Assembly (NCBI RefSeq): GCF_020524765.1
Contig: NZ_JAIVLR010000001.1
Coordinates: forward strand, 1-64,000
Reading direction: 5' to 3'
Origin: Qipengyuania gaetbuli
Lineage (GTDB): Bacteria > Pseudomonadota > Alphaproteobacteria > Sphingomonadales > Sphingomonadaceae
DNA: 64,000 bases
In this document: piece by piece, positions 58,163 to 64,000 of the stretch
Layout: every line of letters starts with the position of its first letter
Numbering within the stretch: position 1 is the first letter of the stretch
The notes under the pieces: model-generated
The model's input: the letters and a program-made list of their open reading frames with translations, nothing else
What the model was told of the DNA's origin: nothing
Database searches by the model: none
Program-made: the position numbers and the translations under genes

Positions 58163-59482
58163 TCACCCCCGCACCCACCCATACACCGGCCCGAACCCCA
58201 CCAGCGCCGCGCCCACGAAGGGCAGCGCCACCACCCATAGGCGAACGCCGGTCACGCCTTCCGGGCTGGCGATGCTTATGGCGGCGGTCATGGCTAGCCC
58301 CACGCAGATTGCGATCATGCCGATGACGAGGCGCAGGCGGGGTACGGGGCGCTCGCGGGTGGCGGGAACGCTGCCGCGCTCGTAGCGGGCGAAGATCGCG
58401 ATCAGCGGCAGCAGCGCCGCGATCCACAGCGCGAACCAGACAGGCCGGCCCAGCCACCATTCGCACGTGCCCGGCATGACGCGCAGGCCGATCCCTCCGG
58501 CAAGCCAAGCCGCCACCATCACCAGCACGTAGGCCGTCAGGTGCCAAAGATAGACGGTCATGATCATGCCGTTCATCAGCACGGTCGCGGTCCAGAGCGT
58601 GAGGTTGTCGAGCAGCTTCCTGCCCCACGGCTCCAGCGCCAGCACCAGACCGGTCTGTGCCAAGCCCAGCGCCAGAAGCGCGAGCGTCGGCGGCATGGAA
58701 TTGGTGATCTCCGCCCCCGGAACGCCGATCATGGCAATCGGGTACGGGCCATAGACGGTGAGGCCTACCAGCACGGCGAGGCCGGCGAGGAACAGCGCAA
58801 ACGCTTTGTTCGGCCCCAGCCTCCCCTGCTGCCAGGCATAACCGAGCTGGTGGATGCCGACCCACACGAAAATGAAATTGGCAAAGTTCACGTAAGGCAC
58901 GCCGTGCGCCAGCGTCAGCCAATCCACCGCCACCGCACCTGCCACCAGCAGGGCGACGCTGCCGAAGCCCAGCCTCTCCCAAAGTTTCCACGTCAGCGGG
59001 GCGAGCGCGGTCACCAGCAGATAGACCGCGAGGAACCACACCGGGATCAGCGCAAGGAAGACCCCCATCCGCACCGTCTCGCGCGCCATCCCCATTTGCG
59101 TCGCGGCAAAGGCGAATGCGGCCCAGACCAGCAACACGGGGAATACGGGGTTGATCAGGCGCTGGATGCGGCTGGCGAACCAGTCGGAATAATGGCCGCC
59201 CTTCGCGCGGGTCGAAGCCCAGCTCACGCCGTTGGAATAGCCACCCACGAGGAAGAACACCGGCATGACCTGGAAGCCCCAGGTGAGCCATTGCGACCAG
59301 GGCAGTATCCCGAGCAGATGGCCGCCCACCACCTCCCCGCTCGCATCGATATAGGGCGCCGCGACCAGCCAGTGCCCGACCACGACGGCGAGAATGGACA
59401 AGGCGCGCAGGAAATCGACATAGCGGTTGCGTTCGGGCGGGGCCTGCTGCGCCAGCCCCTTCGCCTTGCTCCACATGCCCAT
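58163..59482 (-). CDS. Acyltransferase-3-family membrane protein
   Basis: The 439-residue protein has about eleven membrane segments and the acyltransferase-3 signature [20 protein letters not shown] (active-site His) near residues 20-39, with [12 protein letters not shown] following. Such proteins O-acylate sugars or lipids at the outer face of the inner membrane. The C-terminus ends in a hydrophobic helix. The gene is divergent from argG and has a weak upstream signal. It could modify surface glycans, but nothing ties it to the EPS locus 40 kb away. Confidence 0.88.
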
Positions 59483-59638: not shown

Positions 59639-60853
59639 ATGTCCGATATCAAGCGTGTCGTCCTCGCCTATTCCGGCGGCCTCGATACCTCCGTCATCGC
59701 CAAGTGGCTCGAAGTGGAACGCGGCCTCGAAGTCGTCACGTTCACTGCCGACCTCGGACAGGGCGAGGAAATCGAACCGGCCCGGGCCAAGGCGCGCGCC
59801 ATGGGCATTCCGGACCAGCACATCTTCATCGAGGACCTGCGCGAGGAATTCGTGCGCGACTTCGTCTTCCCGATGATGCGCGCCAATGCCCGCTATGAAG
59901 GCGACTACCTGCTCGGCACCTCGATCGCGCGCCCGCTGATTTCCAAGCGCCTCGTCGAGATCGCGCACGAAACCGGCGCGGACGCCATCGCGCATGGCGC
60001 AACCGGCAAGGGCAACGACCAGGTCCGCTTCGAACTGTCGGCCTATGCGCTCGATCCCGACATCAAGGTGATCGCTCCGTGGCGCGAATGGGATCTGACG
60101 AGCCGCACCGCGCTGATCGCCTGGGCCGAAGCGCACCAGATCGCCGTCCCCAAGGACAAGCGCGGCGAAAGCCCGTTCTCGACCGATGCGAACCTGCTGC
60201 ACACCTCTTCGGAAGGAAAGGTGCTGGAGGATCCGTGGGAAGAGACGCCCGACTACGTCTATTCGCGCACCGACCATCCGGAAAACGCGCCGGACACGCC
60301 CGAATACATCACGATCGATTTCGAGAAGGGCGACGGCGTTGCCCTGAATGGCGAGGCGATGAGCCCGGCCACCTTGCTGGCCGCGCTGAACGATCTCGGC
60401 CGCACGCATGGCATCGGCCGCCTCGACCTCGTCGAAAACCGCTTCGTCGGCATGAAGAGCCGCGGCATGTACGAAACCCCGGGCGGTGAGATCTACGCCC
60501 GCGCCCACCGGGGGATCGAGCAGATCACGCTCGATCGCGGGGCGGCGCATCTCAAGGACGAGCTCATGCCGCGCTATGCCGAGCTGGTGTACAACGGCCT
60601 GTGGTTCAGCCCGGAACGCGAAATGCTGCAGGCTGCCGTCGACCTCAGCCAGGAGAAGGTGTCGGGCACCGTCAGGCTCAAGCTCTACAAGGGCAATGCG
60701 ATGGTCGTCGGCCGCAAGTCGCCCAACAGCCTCTATTCCGAAGCGCACGTCACTTTCGAGGACGATGCGGGCGCCTACGACCAGAAGGATGCGGAAGGCT
60801 TCATCAAGCTCAACGCCCTGCGCCTCCGCCTGCTGGCCAAGCGCGACCGGTAA
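59639..60853 (+). CDS. argG: Argininosuccinate synthase
   Basis: The 404-residue ATP-pyrophosphatase enzyme joins citrulline and aspartate in arginine synthesis. The PP-loop [18 protein letters not shown] starts the protein. [33 protein letters not shown] and [21 protein letters not shown] follow, as in all ArgG. Translation starts at ATG 59639. Much longer frames upstream are artefacts. There is no gene between its end and rlpA, but a likely structured RNA. Confidence 0.97.
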
Positions 60854-60933
60854 TTGCGTGAAATCGGGTGCGGGAAGCGCAAAATTGCGCATTGCCTGCG
60901 CTCGCCTTCTGGAAATTGCGACGAACCGTTGAC

Positions 60934-60977
60934 TTATCCACCTCCGTCCACAGCGAATTCGGGGGAAAGTGGATAAC
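60934..60977. promoter_or_regulatory. Pair of inverted DnaA-box-like sequences
   Basis: TTATCCACC (60934-60942) and, inverted, GTGGATAAC (60969-60977, i.e. GTTATCCAC) each differ from the TTATCCACA box by one base. A third partial box (GTCCACAG) lies between. This could be a DnaA-binding site or a transcription control element of the downstream RNA region, or chance. No oriC gene context (dnaA, hemE, repeated boxes) is present. Confidence 0.35.
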
Positions 60978-61020
60978 TCGCGTCTTGCAAGCTTGAAGAA
61001 TCGGGCGATCAGGCGCAGCT

Positions 61021-61551
61021 TCAATTCATCGGAACGGCGAAGAAAGCTTCCGGTCCAGACGGTCTAACGACCTGAAAGACTTAGGAAATTCGGAACCGGA
61101 AAGACGTAGCGGGATCTGTCCGCGCGACTTTCGAGACCCTCGTGCAGAAGGCTTCGGCCAGACGCAAGGCGGGTCGATGACGGAGACGCGTAACATCCCA
61201 TTACGGGCCGGACCAACCCGGTCGGATGCCGAGGAGGCGTCGCAGAAAGGTCTTCGGACCGGATGGTGATGCAACCGCTCGAGGCTCCGGCCATCAACGG
61301 AAGGTCGGGCTGCGGAGCCGCCCGTCGAAGGTCGGCTGGGGAAGGTAAGCGAATGGCTTCGGCCACGACGCGACCGGACCGGGCTGATTGGAGGGTGGAG
61401 CCGGATGCCGGTGCGAGCGCCGGTGACAGACCCGGAAGACCGTCTTCGGACGGACAGAAGGGAAAAGCATCGGATGCCAAGCTCTCGTCTTCGGACAAGA
61501 CCACGCATCGGTGAGAGTGGGGTCGGCAGCAATGCCGGCCCCATTTGCTTT
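61021..61551 (+). ncRNA. Putative structured non-coding RNA with UUCG hairpins (undescribed)
   Basis: No protein frame here looks genuine: long open frames exist on both strands, all rich in Arg, Ser, Gly and Ala without conserved features. Instead the plus strand carries a run of small hairpins closed by the stable UUCG tetraloop: at 61150-61159 (GGC-TTCG-GCC), 61249-61260 (GGTC-TTCG-GACC), 61354-61365 (TGGC-TTCG-GCCA), 61440-61453 (CCGTC-TTCG-GACGG) and 61487-61496. The GGTC-TAAC-GACC hairpin (61051-61062) and a 7-bp repeat GGCTCCG/CGGAGCC also lie here. The motif CGGATGCC recurs three times. The region ends in a rho-independent terminator. It does not show RNase P, tmRNA or 6S signatures that I know. 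The 5' end is uncertain. Confidence 0.55.
61518..61551 (+). terminator. Intrinsic terminator of the putative RNA gene
   Basis: A 10-bp stem TGGGGTCGGC/GCCGGCCCCA with one G-U pair and loop AGCAAT is followed by TTTGCTTT. No coding gene precedes it within 660 bases, which argues that it ends a non-coding transcript. Confidence 0.88.
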
Positions 61552-61758
61552 GGGGCGCCCTTCCCGCATTGCTGCTTTTCCACGCCAGGCATGCAAACCC
61601 TCGAATCACGCGATAGTGTGATTGCCCTGTGCCACCCACGAGATGCTGTAGGAAAGCGCGCCCGATCCGCGCCGCGAGGCCGCAATCGCGACGAACTGTG
61701 GCCGAATCGAGGCAGCCGCCCCTGGCCTTAACGACTCCGCCTGCGGGGCCGTCTATAG

Positions 61759-61779
61759 CCTCCCGAACCGAACGGGAGG
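61759..61779 (+). promoter_or_regulatory. Hairpin covering the rlpA ribosome binding site
   Basis: CCTCCCG (61759-61765) and CGGGAGG (61773-61779) form a perfect 7-bp stem with a 7-base loop AACCGAA. The right arm holds the GGGAGG ribosome site, seven bases before the rlpA ATG, so folded mRNA would hide it. It could be a translational control switch or a thermosensor-like element. Confidence 0.55.
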
Positions 61780-61786
61780 TCCATTC

Positions 61787-62299
61787 ATGGCCAAACGCGC
61801 GCTACGCAGCATGCTCTTCTTCGCAGCCCTTACGCTGCCCGGTACCGCCGGTCATTCCGAAGAGCGCGAGCTTACCCCAGTAACCGACACCCAGTTCGCG
61901 GCCACTTTCGCCGCCTACGCGCCCCTGCCCGAAGCACCTGCGCCGGGTCCGGAGGCGGTCGACCTCGCCACGATCGAGCCGGTCGTCGAGGCGGAACCTG
62001 CGGGCACCTCGCTCGGCTCGGGCGTCGCCTCCTATTACGGCAAGCGTTTCCATGGCCGCCGCACCGCCAGCGGAGAACGGTTCGACATGAACGGCTACAC
62101 CGCCGCGCACCGCACCCTGCCCTTCGGCAGCCGCGTTTCGGTGACCAACCCGCGCACCGGCAAGTCGGTGGTGGTCCGCATCAACGACCGCGGTCCCTTC
62201 CACGGCGGCCGCACAATCGACCTGTCGCGCGCCGCGGCAGAGGAGATCGGCATCGTCAACCGCGGCCACGGCGAAGTGGAACTGGCGCTGCTCGACTGA
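61787..62299 (+). CDS. rlpA: RlpA-family septal peptidoglycan hydrolase (double-psi beta barrel)
   Basis: The 170-residue product has a signal peptide ([24 protein letters not shown]), a spacer rich in Pro, Ala and Glu (about 45-75), and then a DPBB domain (about 78-165). The domain has [32 protein letters not shown] and [16 protein letters not shown] with the catalytic aspartate. It lacks the SPOR domain of E. coli RlpA and is a short form common in alphaproteobacteria. The ribosome site GGGAGG is strong but lies in a hairpin. Confidence 0.9.
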
Positions 62300-62321: not shown

Positions 62322-63128
62322 TCACTCTCCGCCCCCGCCCGCAGCGTGCAGCGCCGCCGCCAGCTCCTCGTCGGTGGTGAGCAGCCACCATTCGGGCAAG
62401 CCCGCCTCGTAGGCCTCCATCTGCACCGCCTCCACCTCGTGGCGGTCGAGCTCCCACCCGGCGAGCTGGGCAAAGCTCTCCACGCCAGCGGGCCGCGCGT
62501 CGTAGAACCGCTCGAGCCGGTTGCCGAACCACTGGCAATCGGCCTGCGTCAGCTTGGCCTCGGGATCGTCGCATTGCCCTCCGCACTTCCTACAGGGTGG
62601 AACGGATGGAACAGGGTCCTGGGGAGAATTTCCGGCGGCCTCCGCAGCACCGGCAGCATCGGCACCGGGCCGGTCTTCCAGCGCGCACCCTTCGCGCAAG
62701 GCCTCGATATCCCCGTCGAGCGTGGCGAGCGCCGCGACCACCTCGGGCCGCTCCTCCAACTGGTCGAGCCGCGCCAGGTGCGCGAGCAGCAGGCGGCTGT
62801 CATAGCGCCGCCGCCGCGCGACCTCCTCGCCGTGGTAGAACACTGCCTCCTCCACCCCCTCGATCGCCCGCTCCGCCAGCGTAGCCTCCGCATGCGCGCG
62901 CGCCGCGAGCAGCGCCGCATCCCACGCCCGCGCGAGCGCCGGAGAGGCCCGCCGCTGGCGATAGGCTGTCTGCGCCGAGACCCGCGCCGCGCGGCACGCG
63001 AGCCGGACATTGCCGAATAGTTGGAGACTGGCGAGAAACTCGGCCTGCCGCGCGGGCGAGAAGACGGTGTGCCCCTCCCCGTGCGGGCCGGCGGTGGGAG
63101 CGGGTTCAATCGGGACGAGAGCGTTCAT
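62322..63128 (-). CDS. Terminase small-subunit-like HTH protein, accessory
   Basis: The 268-residue protein has an N-terminal region like small phage terminase subunits, with the helix-turn-helix FGNVRLACRAARVSAQTAYRQR (about 38-58), and then an Arg/Ala-rich helical stretch. Three cysteines lie in PCRKCGGQC at about 181-188. The C-terminal 80 residues contain WWLLTTDEELAAALHA. Repeat copy C lies inside the coding sequence and encodes NSPQDPVPSVPPCR in this frame. No other phage genes are nearby, so it is best read as a chromosomal HTH protein of unknown role. The ribosome site GAGGTG is five bases from the ATG. Confidence 0.7.
   Translation of the reverse strand: MNALVPIEPAPTAGPHGEGHTVFSPARQAEFLASLQLFGNVRLACRAARVSAQTAYRQRRASPALARAWDAALLAARAHAEATLAERAIEGVEEAVFYHGEEVARRRRYDSRLLLAHLARLDQLEERPEVVAALATLDGDIEALREGCALEDRPGADAAGAAEAAGNSPQDPVPSVPPCRKCGGQCDDPEAKLTQADCQWFGNRLERFYDARPAGVESFAQLAGWELDRHEVEAVQMEAYEAGLPEWWLLTTDEELAAALHAAGGGGE
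62588..62639 (+). repeat. Dispersed GGAACGGATGGAACA repeat, copy C
   Basis: CTACAGGGTGGAACGGATGG followed by AACAGGGTCCTGG and GGAGAATTTCC lies inside the HTH protein gene. It shares about 42 of 51 positions with copy B. It is read antisense in that gene and adds a proline-rich stretch without breaking the frame. Confidence 0.85.
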
Positions 63129-63289: not shown

Positions 63290-63709
63290 GTGCCTAAGTC
63301 CCTGATAGTCATAACAGCAATCATTCTCCTGCTTCTGGGTGCCGCCTTGATGTACGCCATTGAGGCAGCCTCAGGCTTAACCTTCACTCGCACGCAGAAT
63401 CTAACACCAGCCGAATTCATCACCATCGTCCTCTCCGCGTTGGGCGTCATCCTTGCCGCGATGACACTGATGATTGGTGCACTAGCGATAATTGGCTGGA
63501 ACAGCATTCAATCGCGTGTCGAACGAAAAGTTGATGAATCTTCAGAGGATTATCTGAAGCGCCGATTTAGCGATGATGATGAGGAATATCAGCAATTTGT
63601 CGAAGACATCAAAGAGGACGTAAGGGTTCGCTTGCTCGCCTTTACAAGGCAGTTCCAACGCGAGATCGACGAAGAAGATGAGCGTGAGCAAGGCGACCCA
63701 GACGCATGA
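63290..63709 (+). CDS. Two-TM membrane protein, partner of ImmA/IrrE gene
   Basis: The 139-residue protein (GTG start at 63290, with GAGG five to six bases upstream; an earlier in-frame GTG at 63272 lacks a site) has two membrane helices at about 5-25 and 40-65 (LTPAEFITIVLSALGVILAAMTLM). An acidic, helical tail follows (SSEDYLKRRFSDDDEEYQQFVEDIKED, REIDEEDEREQ). The tail is probably cytosolic. The stop overlaps the start of the ImmA-like gene by four bases, so the pair is co-translated. The function is unknown. The region is AT-richer than average. Confidence 0.75.
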   Translation: MPKSLIVITAIILLLLGAALMYAIEAASGLTFTRTQNLTPAEFITIVLSALGVILAAMTLMIGALAIIGWNSIQSRVERKVDESSEDYLKRRFSDDDEEYQQFVEDIKEDVRVRLLAFTRQFQREIDEEDEREQGDPDA

Positions 63710-64000
63710 TCATTCCATCAAAATTCATACCGATTATCGACAAGTATACAGCTGAGGCGCCGGTCAACTTGGGAGGCTTGGCATCGGAACTCGGCCTGGA
63801 AGTGTACCAGTCTACCTTAGAGCCAAAGATCTCTGGATTGATCGAACCATCAAATACGGCCCCGTCGGGTTTCTTAATTAAACTGAACCGCCATGATCCC
63901 ATTGTACGTCAGCGCTTCACGCTGGCGCACGAAATTGCACATTTCCTCTTGCATCGGTTTGATATTGGCCGAGGGGTCGTTGATGACACACTCTATCGAT
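63706..64000 (+). CDS. ImmA/IrrE-family metallopeptidase, cut by window edge
   Basis: The first 98 residues are visible. The zinc-metallopeptidase motif HEIAHFLLH (HExxH, about 82-90) follows QRFTLA, which is the typical ImmA/IrrE active-site context. The preceding segment (ASELGLEVYQSTLEPKISGLIE) is the usual N-terminal part of the family. These proteases cleave a repressor in mobile elements or stress systems (for example ImmR by ImmA, DdrO by IrrE). Here the partner is a membrane protein rather than a classical HTH repressor. The rest lies outside the window. Confidence 0.85.
   Translation, partial: MIIPSKFIPIIDKYTAEAPVNLGGLASELGLEVYQSTLEPKISGLIEPSNTAPSGFLIKLNRHDPIVRQRFTLAHEIAHFLLHRFDIGRGVVDDTLYR

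Follow-up and report, generated by a model that had tools for sequence, protein, structure and literature searches.

A conserved, highly structured noncoding RNA gene between argG and rlpA of Qipengyuania gaetbuli, with a predicted DnaA- and CcrM/GcrA-type promoter

What is encoded between argG and rlpA of Qipengyuania gaetbuli, where no protein gene is apparent? In the window, that is, the whole stretch of 64,000 nucleotides that was analyzed, argG stops at 60853 and rlpA lies at 61787. Inspection of the open reading frames agreed with the first-pass annotation that the ~930 bp between them hold no convincing gene. The same annotation had suggested a new structured RNA of 400–600 nt at this place, a suggestion supported by covariation, by conservation and by the lack of an Rfam match. 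Sequence comparison supports well the assignment of 61028-61551 on the plus strand as an independent gene whose product is a highly structured noncoding RNA; the fold and its strand, the conserved place, the terminator hairpin and the near-invariant positions of the promoter are likewise well backed. The −35 and −10 positions in the window put the inferred start near 61028, and thus indicate an RNA of about 520 nt. In the 116 copies, the length measured from a common alignment position ranged from 428 to 604 nt, with a median of 515. The gene and the elements of its predicted fold are as follows.

61028-61551, plus strand: structured noncoding RNA of about 520 nt; start predicted from the promoter, end from the terminator, with covariation
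61029-61104, plus strand: helix set A (5′ domain), helices 1–5, with covariation
61105-61205, plus strand: helix set B, helices 6–11, a long rod with the UUCG hairpin 61150-61159 as cap and CUGUCC in an internal loop
61220-61292, plus strand: helix set C, helices 12–14, with the UUCG hairpin 61249-61260 and covariation
61309-61406, plus strand: helix set D, helices 15–17, with the UUCG hairpin 61354-61365 and covariation
61407-61512, plus strand: conserved 3′ domain with GCGAGCG and GCCAAG motifs, a branch hairpin at 61481-61502 and a variable UUCG hairpin near 61440
61515-61546, plus strand: terminator hairpin with a GNRA loop, replaced by UUCG in 2 of the 30 aligned copies

The conservation of this stretch in related genomes was analyzed, and the results spoke in favor of the first proposal. 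A DNA search alone found the stretch in 68 of the 199 genomes of the family, and an exact pattern for the 3′ end found 111 stretches in named genomes; the titles of the 80 listed among these were Erythrobacteraceae genera or broader groups, up to "Proteobacteria bacterium". The exact pattern gave 141 loci with one match each, 132 of them with the whole gene, and removal of near-duplicates left the 116 distinct copies that were aligned. In all 30 loci fetched from the DNA search, the RNA lay downstream of argG on the same strand. Where enough sequence was available, a co-oriented argG preceded the RNA in 121 of 122 loci and a co-oriented rlpA followed it in 120 of 123, at a median of 307 nt from the RNA end to the aligned rlpA start. 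Because named strains carry the RNA, deletion and synchrony experiments are possible. Farther out in the window, the minus-strand gene beside argG (58163-59482) encodes a protein with an Acyl_transf_3 domain, and the minus-strand frame after rlpA (62322-63128) has 268 aa and no Pfam match. A plus-strand frame in a low-GC stretch (63706-63999) runs off the window and contains the motif HEIAHFLLH, which we take to be typical of ImmA/IrrE-like metallopeptidases.

RNAalifold was then applied to all 116 sequences, and it gave five helix sets plus the terminator hairpin. In helix set B, double changes were observed in 26 of the 28 pairs of helices 6–11, and the motifs of the 3′ domain were kept in 105 (GCGAGCG) and 115 (GCCAAG) of the 116 sequences. 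When the structure was mapped on an alignment of 30 sequences, the 117 pairs were paired in 88.4% of cells compared to 78.7% in shuffled alignments, and in only 33–44% when the partners were slid. Double changes occurred in 74 of the 117 pairs (44.9 in shuffles) and in 363 cells (117.9 in shuffles), and none of 500 shuffles scored as high as the real alignment. Since the structure had been derived from an alignment that contained the 30 tested sequences, a held-out test was performed in which one clade was folded and the other tested. Pairing reached 77.0% when the fold came from 54 sequences and was tested on 62, and 84.0% in the reverse direction, compared to 31.6–45.6% for slid control structures. 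The two independent clade folds, of 136 and 107 pairs, had 81 pairs in common. G-U cells numbered 1736 and A-C cells 452, an excess that favors the plus strand.

A test of all column pairs against a tree-based null (40 replicates) was weaker; three pairs reached E ≤ 0.05, all of them complementary, and eight reached E ≤ 1. The covariation that the first-pass annotation had asked to be sought is thus supported through tests of a proposed structure, including the held-out one, more than through a search of all pairs. The stretch was more stably folded than dinucleotide shuffles, with z values of −4.81 for 60950-61552 (20 shuffles) and −3.40 for 61028-61551 (100 shuffles). A pseudoknot between CUGUC and GACAG is suggestive only: per-pair support was 0.71–0.97, with 14 U-A against 64 C-G at one pair, but the flanking pairs failed (0.27 and 0.02) and one base is shared with another helix. 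An RNA hairpin formed by the inverted TTATCCAC...GTGGATAA was unsupported: there is little variation in its core pairs, and the RNA is predicted to start only downstream of the site, so we rejected it.

The first reading had rested on at least four clean UUCG hairpins, a recurring motif and a strong intrinsic terminator, and these held in part. On the plus strand of the 64-kb window, only three TTCG loops sit on perfect stems of at least 4 bp, and all three lie in the RNA (61253, 61358 and 61445); the minus strand has two such loops, neither of them at the RNA. The fourth hairpin, at 61150, has a 3-bp stem (GGC/GCC) and falls below that 4-bp limit, yet it is conserved, with UUCG in 65 of 116 copies, compared to 67 for the loop at 61253 and 82 for that at 61358. 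At 61253, GCAA or GCGA replaced UUCG in 16 of 116 copies. The motif CGGATGCC does occur three times in the RNA stretch, but broad conservation applies to the middle copy only (CCGGATGCCGG in 89 of 116); the third covaries with its partner (CGGGCGCC and others), and the first drifts. The terminator hairpin proved nearly invariant, with 14 pairs, 100% of cells paired and double changes in 3 pairs in the 30-sequence alignment. Its T-tract, however, is short (ATTTGCTTT), and a generic consensus scan of 60800-61800 called neither a terminator nor a promoter.

Next, the RNA was compared with known families. With the covariance models of Rfam 15, the whole window gave no match at the gathering thresholds, and at E ≤ 10 the region 60860-61790 gave only a 23-nt match to SpF59 with 16.2 bits against a cut-off of 37.2. 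The RNA thus represents a family absent from Rfam 15. RNase P RNA, alpha-tmRNA and 6S RNA were each located elsewhere in the same genome; known housekeeping RNAs were therefore rejected as its identity, just as the first reading had held. Long bacterial RNAs as structured as this one are few, and their function is often unknown. Among the matches listed from the open-licence full-text literature, no description of this RNA was found, which is not proof that it is unpublished. A study that sought structured RNAs across 26 genomes mentions, in the part of the text available, a Sphingomonas solely in connection with a uORF motif (PMC8632094).

Upstream of the inferred start, the alignment revealed a set of conserved positions that the first-pass annotation had not reported, and a predicted cell-cycle-type promoter with DnaA-box-like and CcrM sites is our addition to it. 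The elements, with positions relative to the inferred start, are as follows.

60934-60941, plus strand: DnaA-box-like site 1, TTATCCAC, about −94 to −87, assigned by motif only
60946-60952, plus strand: DnaA-box-like site 2, weaker, GTCCACA, about −82 to −76, with TCCAC in 116 of 116 copies
60969-60976, minus strand: DnaA-box-like site 3, inverted, GTGGATAA, about −59 to −52
60993-60998, plus strand: −35 element TTGAAG, with its T, T and G in 116, 110 and 116 of 116 copies
60998-61002, plus strand: GAATC, a CcrM site (GANTC) at the junction of −35 element and spacer, in the orientation of the GcrA motif
61016-61021, plus strand: −10 element CAGCTT after a 17-bp spacer, with C, A and the final T each in 116 of 116 copies

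By motif, boxes of the form TTWTCCAC(A) thus lie upstream of the promoter, as at promoters regulated by DnaA. The DnaA box rule has a W at the third position of TTWTCCAC(A). In site 1 (columns 7–14 of the 116 copies), each column is kept in at least 114 copies except the third, where 95 copies have A, 15 have G and 6 have U; the 15 with G depart from the TTWTCCAC form. In site 3 (GTGGAWAA), the W column, 74 U and 42 A, fits W in all 116 copies, and the other columns are kept in 114–116. The three-site pattern was found in 69 of 199 family genomes and its reversed control in 1; the 69 are genomes with the pattern at any place, whether or not at the RNA locus, and some of them, G017, G051 and G195 for instance, look like chance. 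The GTCCACA of site 2 is itself a DnaA motif listed for Caulobacter mipZ P2 in the available text of PMC4287350.

GANTC was present within positions 60–85 in 87 of 116 copies, 69 of which have it at one of two spacings to both promoter elements, and was missing there from the other 29. Seven other palindromes of the GANTC form occurred in 0–17 of the 116 copies, and GANTC was far denser over the first 110 bases, at 8.4 per kb, than across the RNA body, at 0.35 per kb. A GANTC inside a sigma70 promoter, as expected for GcrA/CcrM control, is thus found here, and so is the extended GcrA motif, given as YGAKTCK (PMC7987155, text seen in part). Its reverse complement, MGAMTCR, fitted 75 of 90 promoter GANTC sites, with 5 in the forward form and 10 in neither; because the copies are related, these counts are not independent. 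Among the 79 GANTC sites of the window, 6 fitted MGAMTCR, 7 the forward form and 66 neither. The genome encodes gcrA, with PF07750 over its cut-off at G000:C1:630114-630365 and 630582-630734. One study of Sphingomonadales, in its available part, describes at least one GANTC in every ctrA promoter examined (PMC8116508). From these sites, we infer that the promoter may be of the DnaA plus CcrM/GcrA type found at Caulobacter cell-cycle promoters.

The breadth of the family was then analyzed with a model of the 3′ end; of the 396 genomes of the order, 194 had a match at E ≤ 0.001. At least 115 places were listed at E ≤ 1.6e-12, followed by a gap to 2.8e-9. Within the genus itself, 3 of the 31 listed genomes (G337, G386 and G391) had no match to the model, through loss, filter loss or an assembly gap. 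Eight of 289 genomes of the class were matched, three of them in the family; the five outside were weak (E 1.3e-7 to 7.5e-4), and the four inspected resemble terminator hairpins, so that these were rejected.

Among the matches listed, 33 weak places in six other genera were analyzed (35 stretches were fetched, and two strong matches were left out). In 20 of them, from five genera, a DnaA box plus an oriented GANTC lay 416–793 nt upstream of the match end. Elsewhere on the same strand, a looser promoter motif was absent from all 33 loci. The opposite strand had 9 loose matches in 8 loci, and 8 of these matches begin within that element's own inverted box. The strict promoter motif is missing from the remaining 13 places, 10 of which are without the loose one as well; several of the weak places may be ordinary terminators. 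A stricter promoter pattern was found in 26 of 199 genomes and its reversed controls in 5; the window's own genome stands outside the 26 because its site reads GAATC. In 23 of the 26, a terminator-like hairpin followed within 1 kb, a count taken without a control.

As for gene order, 7 of 8 loci in genus g96 follow argG, while in g78 and other genera the RNA-like locus lies elsewhere in the chromosome, neither argG nor rlpA being found at g78-type loci. The g78 loci (L184-L201) have a similar promoter and terminator at their other chromosomal place, and L186 and L194 carry three GANTC in the promoter. When the 3′ model was applied to the sequence after argG in 29 other family genomes, only L211 was matched at E ≤ 0.001, and the box motif is present there as well; the remaining 28 thus either lack the RNA at this place or have a copy that is too diverged. 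The L211 locus (genus g2), some 660 nt past argG, has a DnaA-box cluster and a terminator about 800 nt apart, and this is probably a longer version of the RNA gene. Judged by its similar start and end, a diverged version is probably present elsewhere in some other genera as well. A wide family, with homologous RNA bodies in these distant copies too, is probable rather than proven.

The DnaA boxes raised the question of a replication origin. oriC is located near hemE in most Sphingomonadaceae, according to the available text of PMC4741004. We sought hemE in 15 genomes; in 11 of them, the RNA was about 0.86–1.05 Mb away, or 0.285–0.391 of the length of the longest contig. Four genomes were left out of this range: the window's own, with hemE 1.25 Mb from the RNA on a 1.69-Mb contig, and three with the two on different contigs. 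Distance from hemE led us to reject an origin. Expressed as a share of the chromosome, the distance from hemE is similar in the 11 genomes and puts the RNA at roughly the middle of the replichore or farther out; this constancy may reflect function or only gene order, as synteny alone could explain it.

From the sites and the fold, we consider it reasonably probable that DnaA and CcrM/GcrA couple production of the RNA to replication and that the RNA acts in trans as a folded scaffold. Passage of the replication fork would leave the GANTC site hemimethylated and thereby yield a pulse of RNA, with DnaA modulating the promoter. The RNA would then act in trans mainly through its fold, in which many of the hairpins are capped and a single 3′ domain is conserved, and its most likely action would be the binding of a protein. 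The timing is deduced from the promoter sites, and the protein-binding scaffold would be the molecular role suggested by a selected fold, drifting loops, stable tetraloops and a conserved 3′ domain, which favor it over base pairing. With such a start, a structured RNA would join the cell-cycle circuit in bacteria outside Caulobacter. Tentatively, and with less confidence, this could extend to much of the Sphingomonadaceae, each with one copy of a fast-evolving folded RNA of ~400–800 nt that would serve as a replication-timed cell-cycle arm, again by scaffolding and not base pairing.

Against this stand several other readings. The RNA might be a cell-cycle sRNA that base-pairs with mRNAs, like CcnA or EcpR1, its helices merely presenting short unpaired seeds. 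CcnA is indeed described as a cell-cycle-regulated noncoding RNA that binds the ctrA and gcrA mRNAs (PMC8959179, in its available part), and the CUGUCC word in the internal loop is found in 91 of 116 copies. However, the present RNA is near 520 nt long, much of it is paired, and its hairpin loops drift or are stable tetraloops; we regard base pairing as rather unlikely, though it is the alternative to be taken most seriously. The locus could also be mainly a DNA element with the RNA secondary. DnaA-binding loci of this kind are known as datA and DARS. The conserved cluster of three boxes and the range of distances from hemE would suit such an element, but selection acts on the RNA fold, the boxes, spanning about −94 to −52, occupy a possible activator position at a conserved promoter, and synteny alone could fix the distance, which together make this improbable.

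If the stretch were a long 3′ UTR of argG, or a leader or attenuator acting in cis on rlpA, the almost constant flanking genes would be accounted for, but this fits poorly with the promoter-like positions and terminator hairpin of the RNA itself and with the 307-nt gap before rlpA. The g78-type genera, whose probable version has a like promoter and terminator with neither neighbor found, argue against an argG tail or rlpA leader too, and we hold this reading to be very improbable. Least credible is a protein-coding gene on either strand. The minus strand has open frames of 219 and 191 codons, and its longest stop-free runs are somewhat above those of shuffles (mean 153 vs 132). In contrast, plus-strand runs equal shuffles (mean 110 vs 111 aa), the lengths of 1672 of the 2000 alignment indels are not divisible by three, and tblastn matches to four open frames covered a median of 35–64 aa, with stops in 103 of 396. 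Coding was rejected for either strand, and the first-pass expectation that no protein frame would be conserved held. The scaffold RNA made in step with replication is thus the reading we prefer, and its likeness to known systems can be set out.

Like the present RNA as we read it, CcnA of Caulobacter crescentus is an alphaproteobacterial noncoding RNA tied to the DnaA-GcrA-CcrM-CtrA cell-cycle circuit. It is 182 nt long and lies inside the replication origin, as given in the available text (PMC8959179), and a CCCC loop mediates its pairing with the leaders of ctrA and gcrA. The present RNA, at about 520 nt and far from hemE, has neither the size of about 180 nt nor the place in oriC, so on size and place we do not file it as CcnA. 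EcpR1 of Sinorhizobium is reportedly a cell-cycle sRNA that acts by base pairing with mRNAs. For the promoter, the available text of PMC4287350 places a GANTC of Caulobacter podJ P2 at −24 and its DnaA motif at −82, and gives DnaA motifs at −52 and −83 for mipZ P2. The spacings here are similar, with GANTC at about −30 to −26 and boxes beginning at about −94, −82 and −59; podJ P2 and mipZ P2, however, drive protein genes, whereas the predicted promoter here would drive an RNA. RNase P RNA, alpha-tmRNA and 6S RNA are likewise structured, but each has its own place in this genome. OLE, GOLLD, ROOL and raiA are large, ornate bacterial RNAs. They are likewise long, with many conserved helices and no coding frame, and the present RNA differs from them in having no Rfam match and in its lineage and gene setting.
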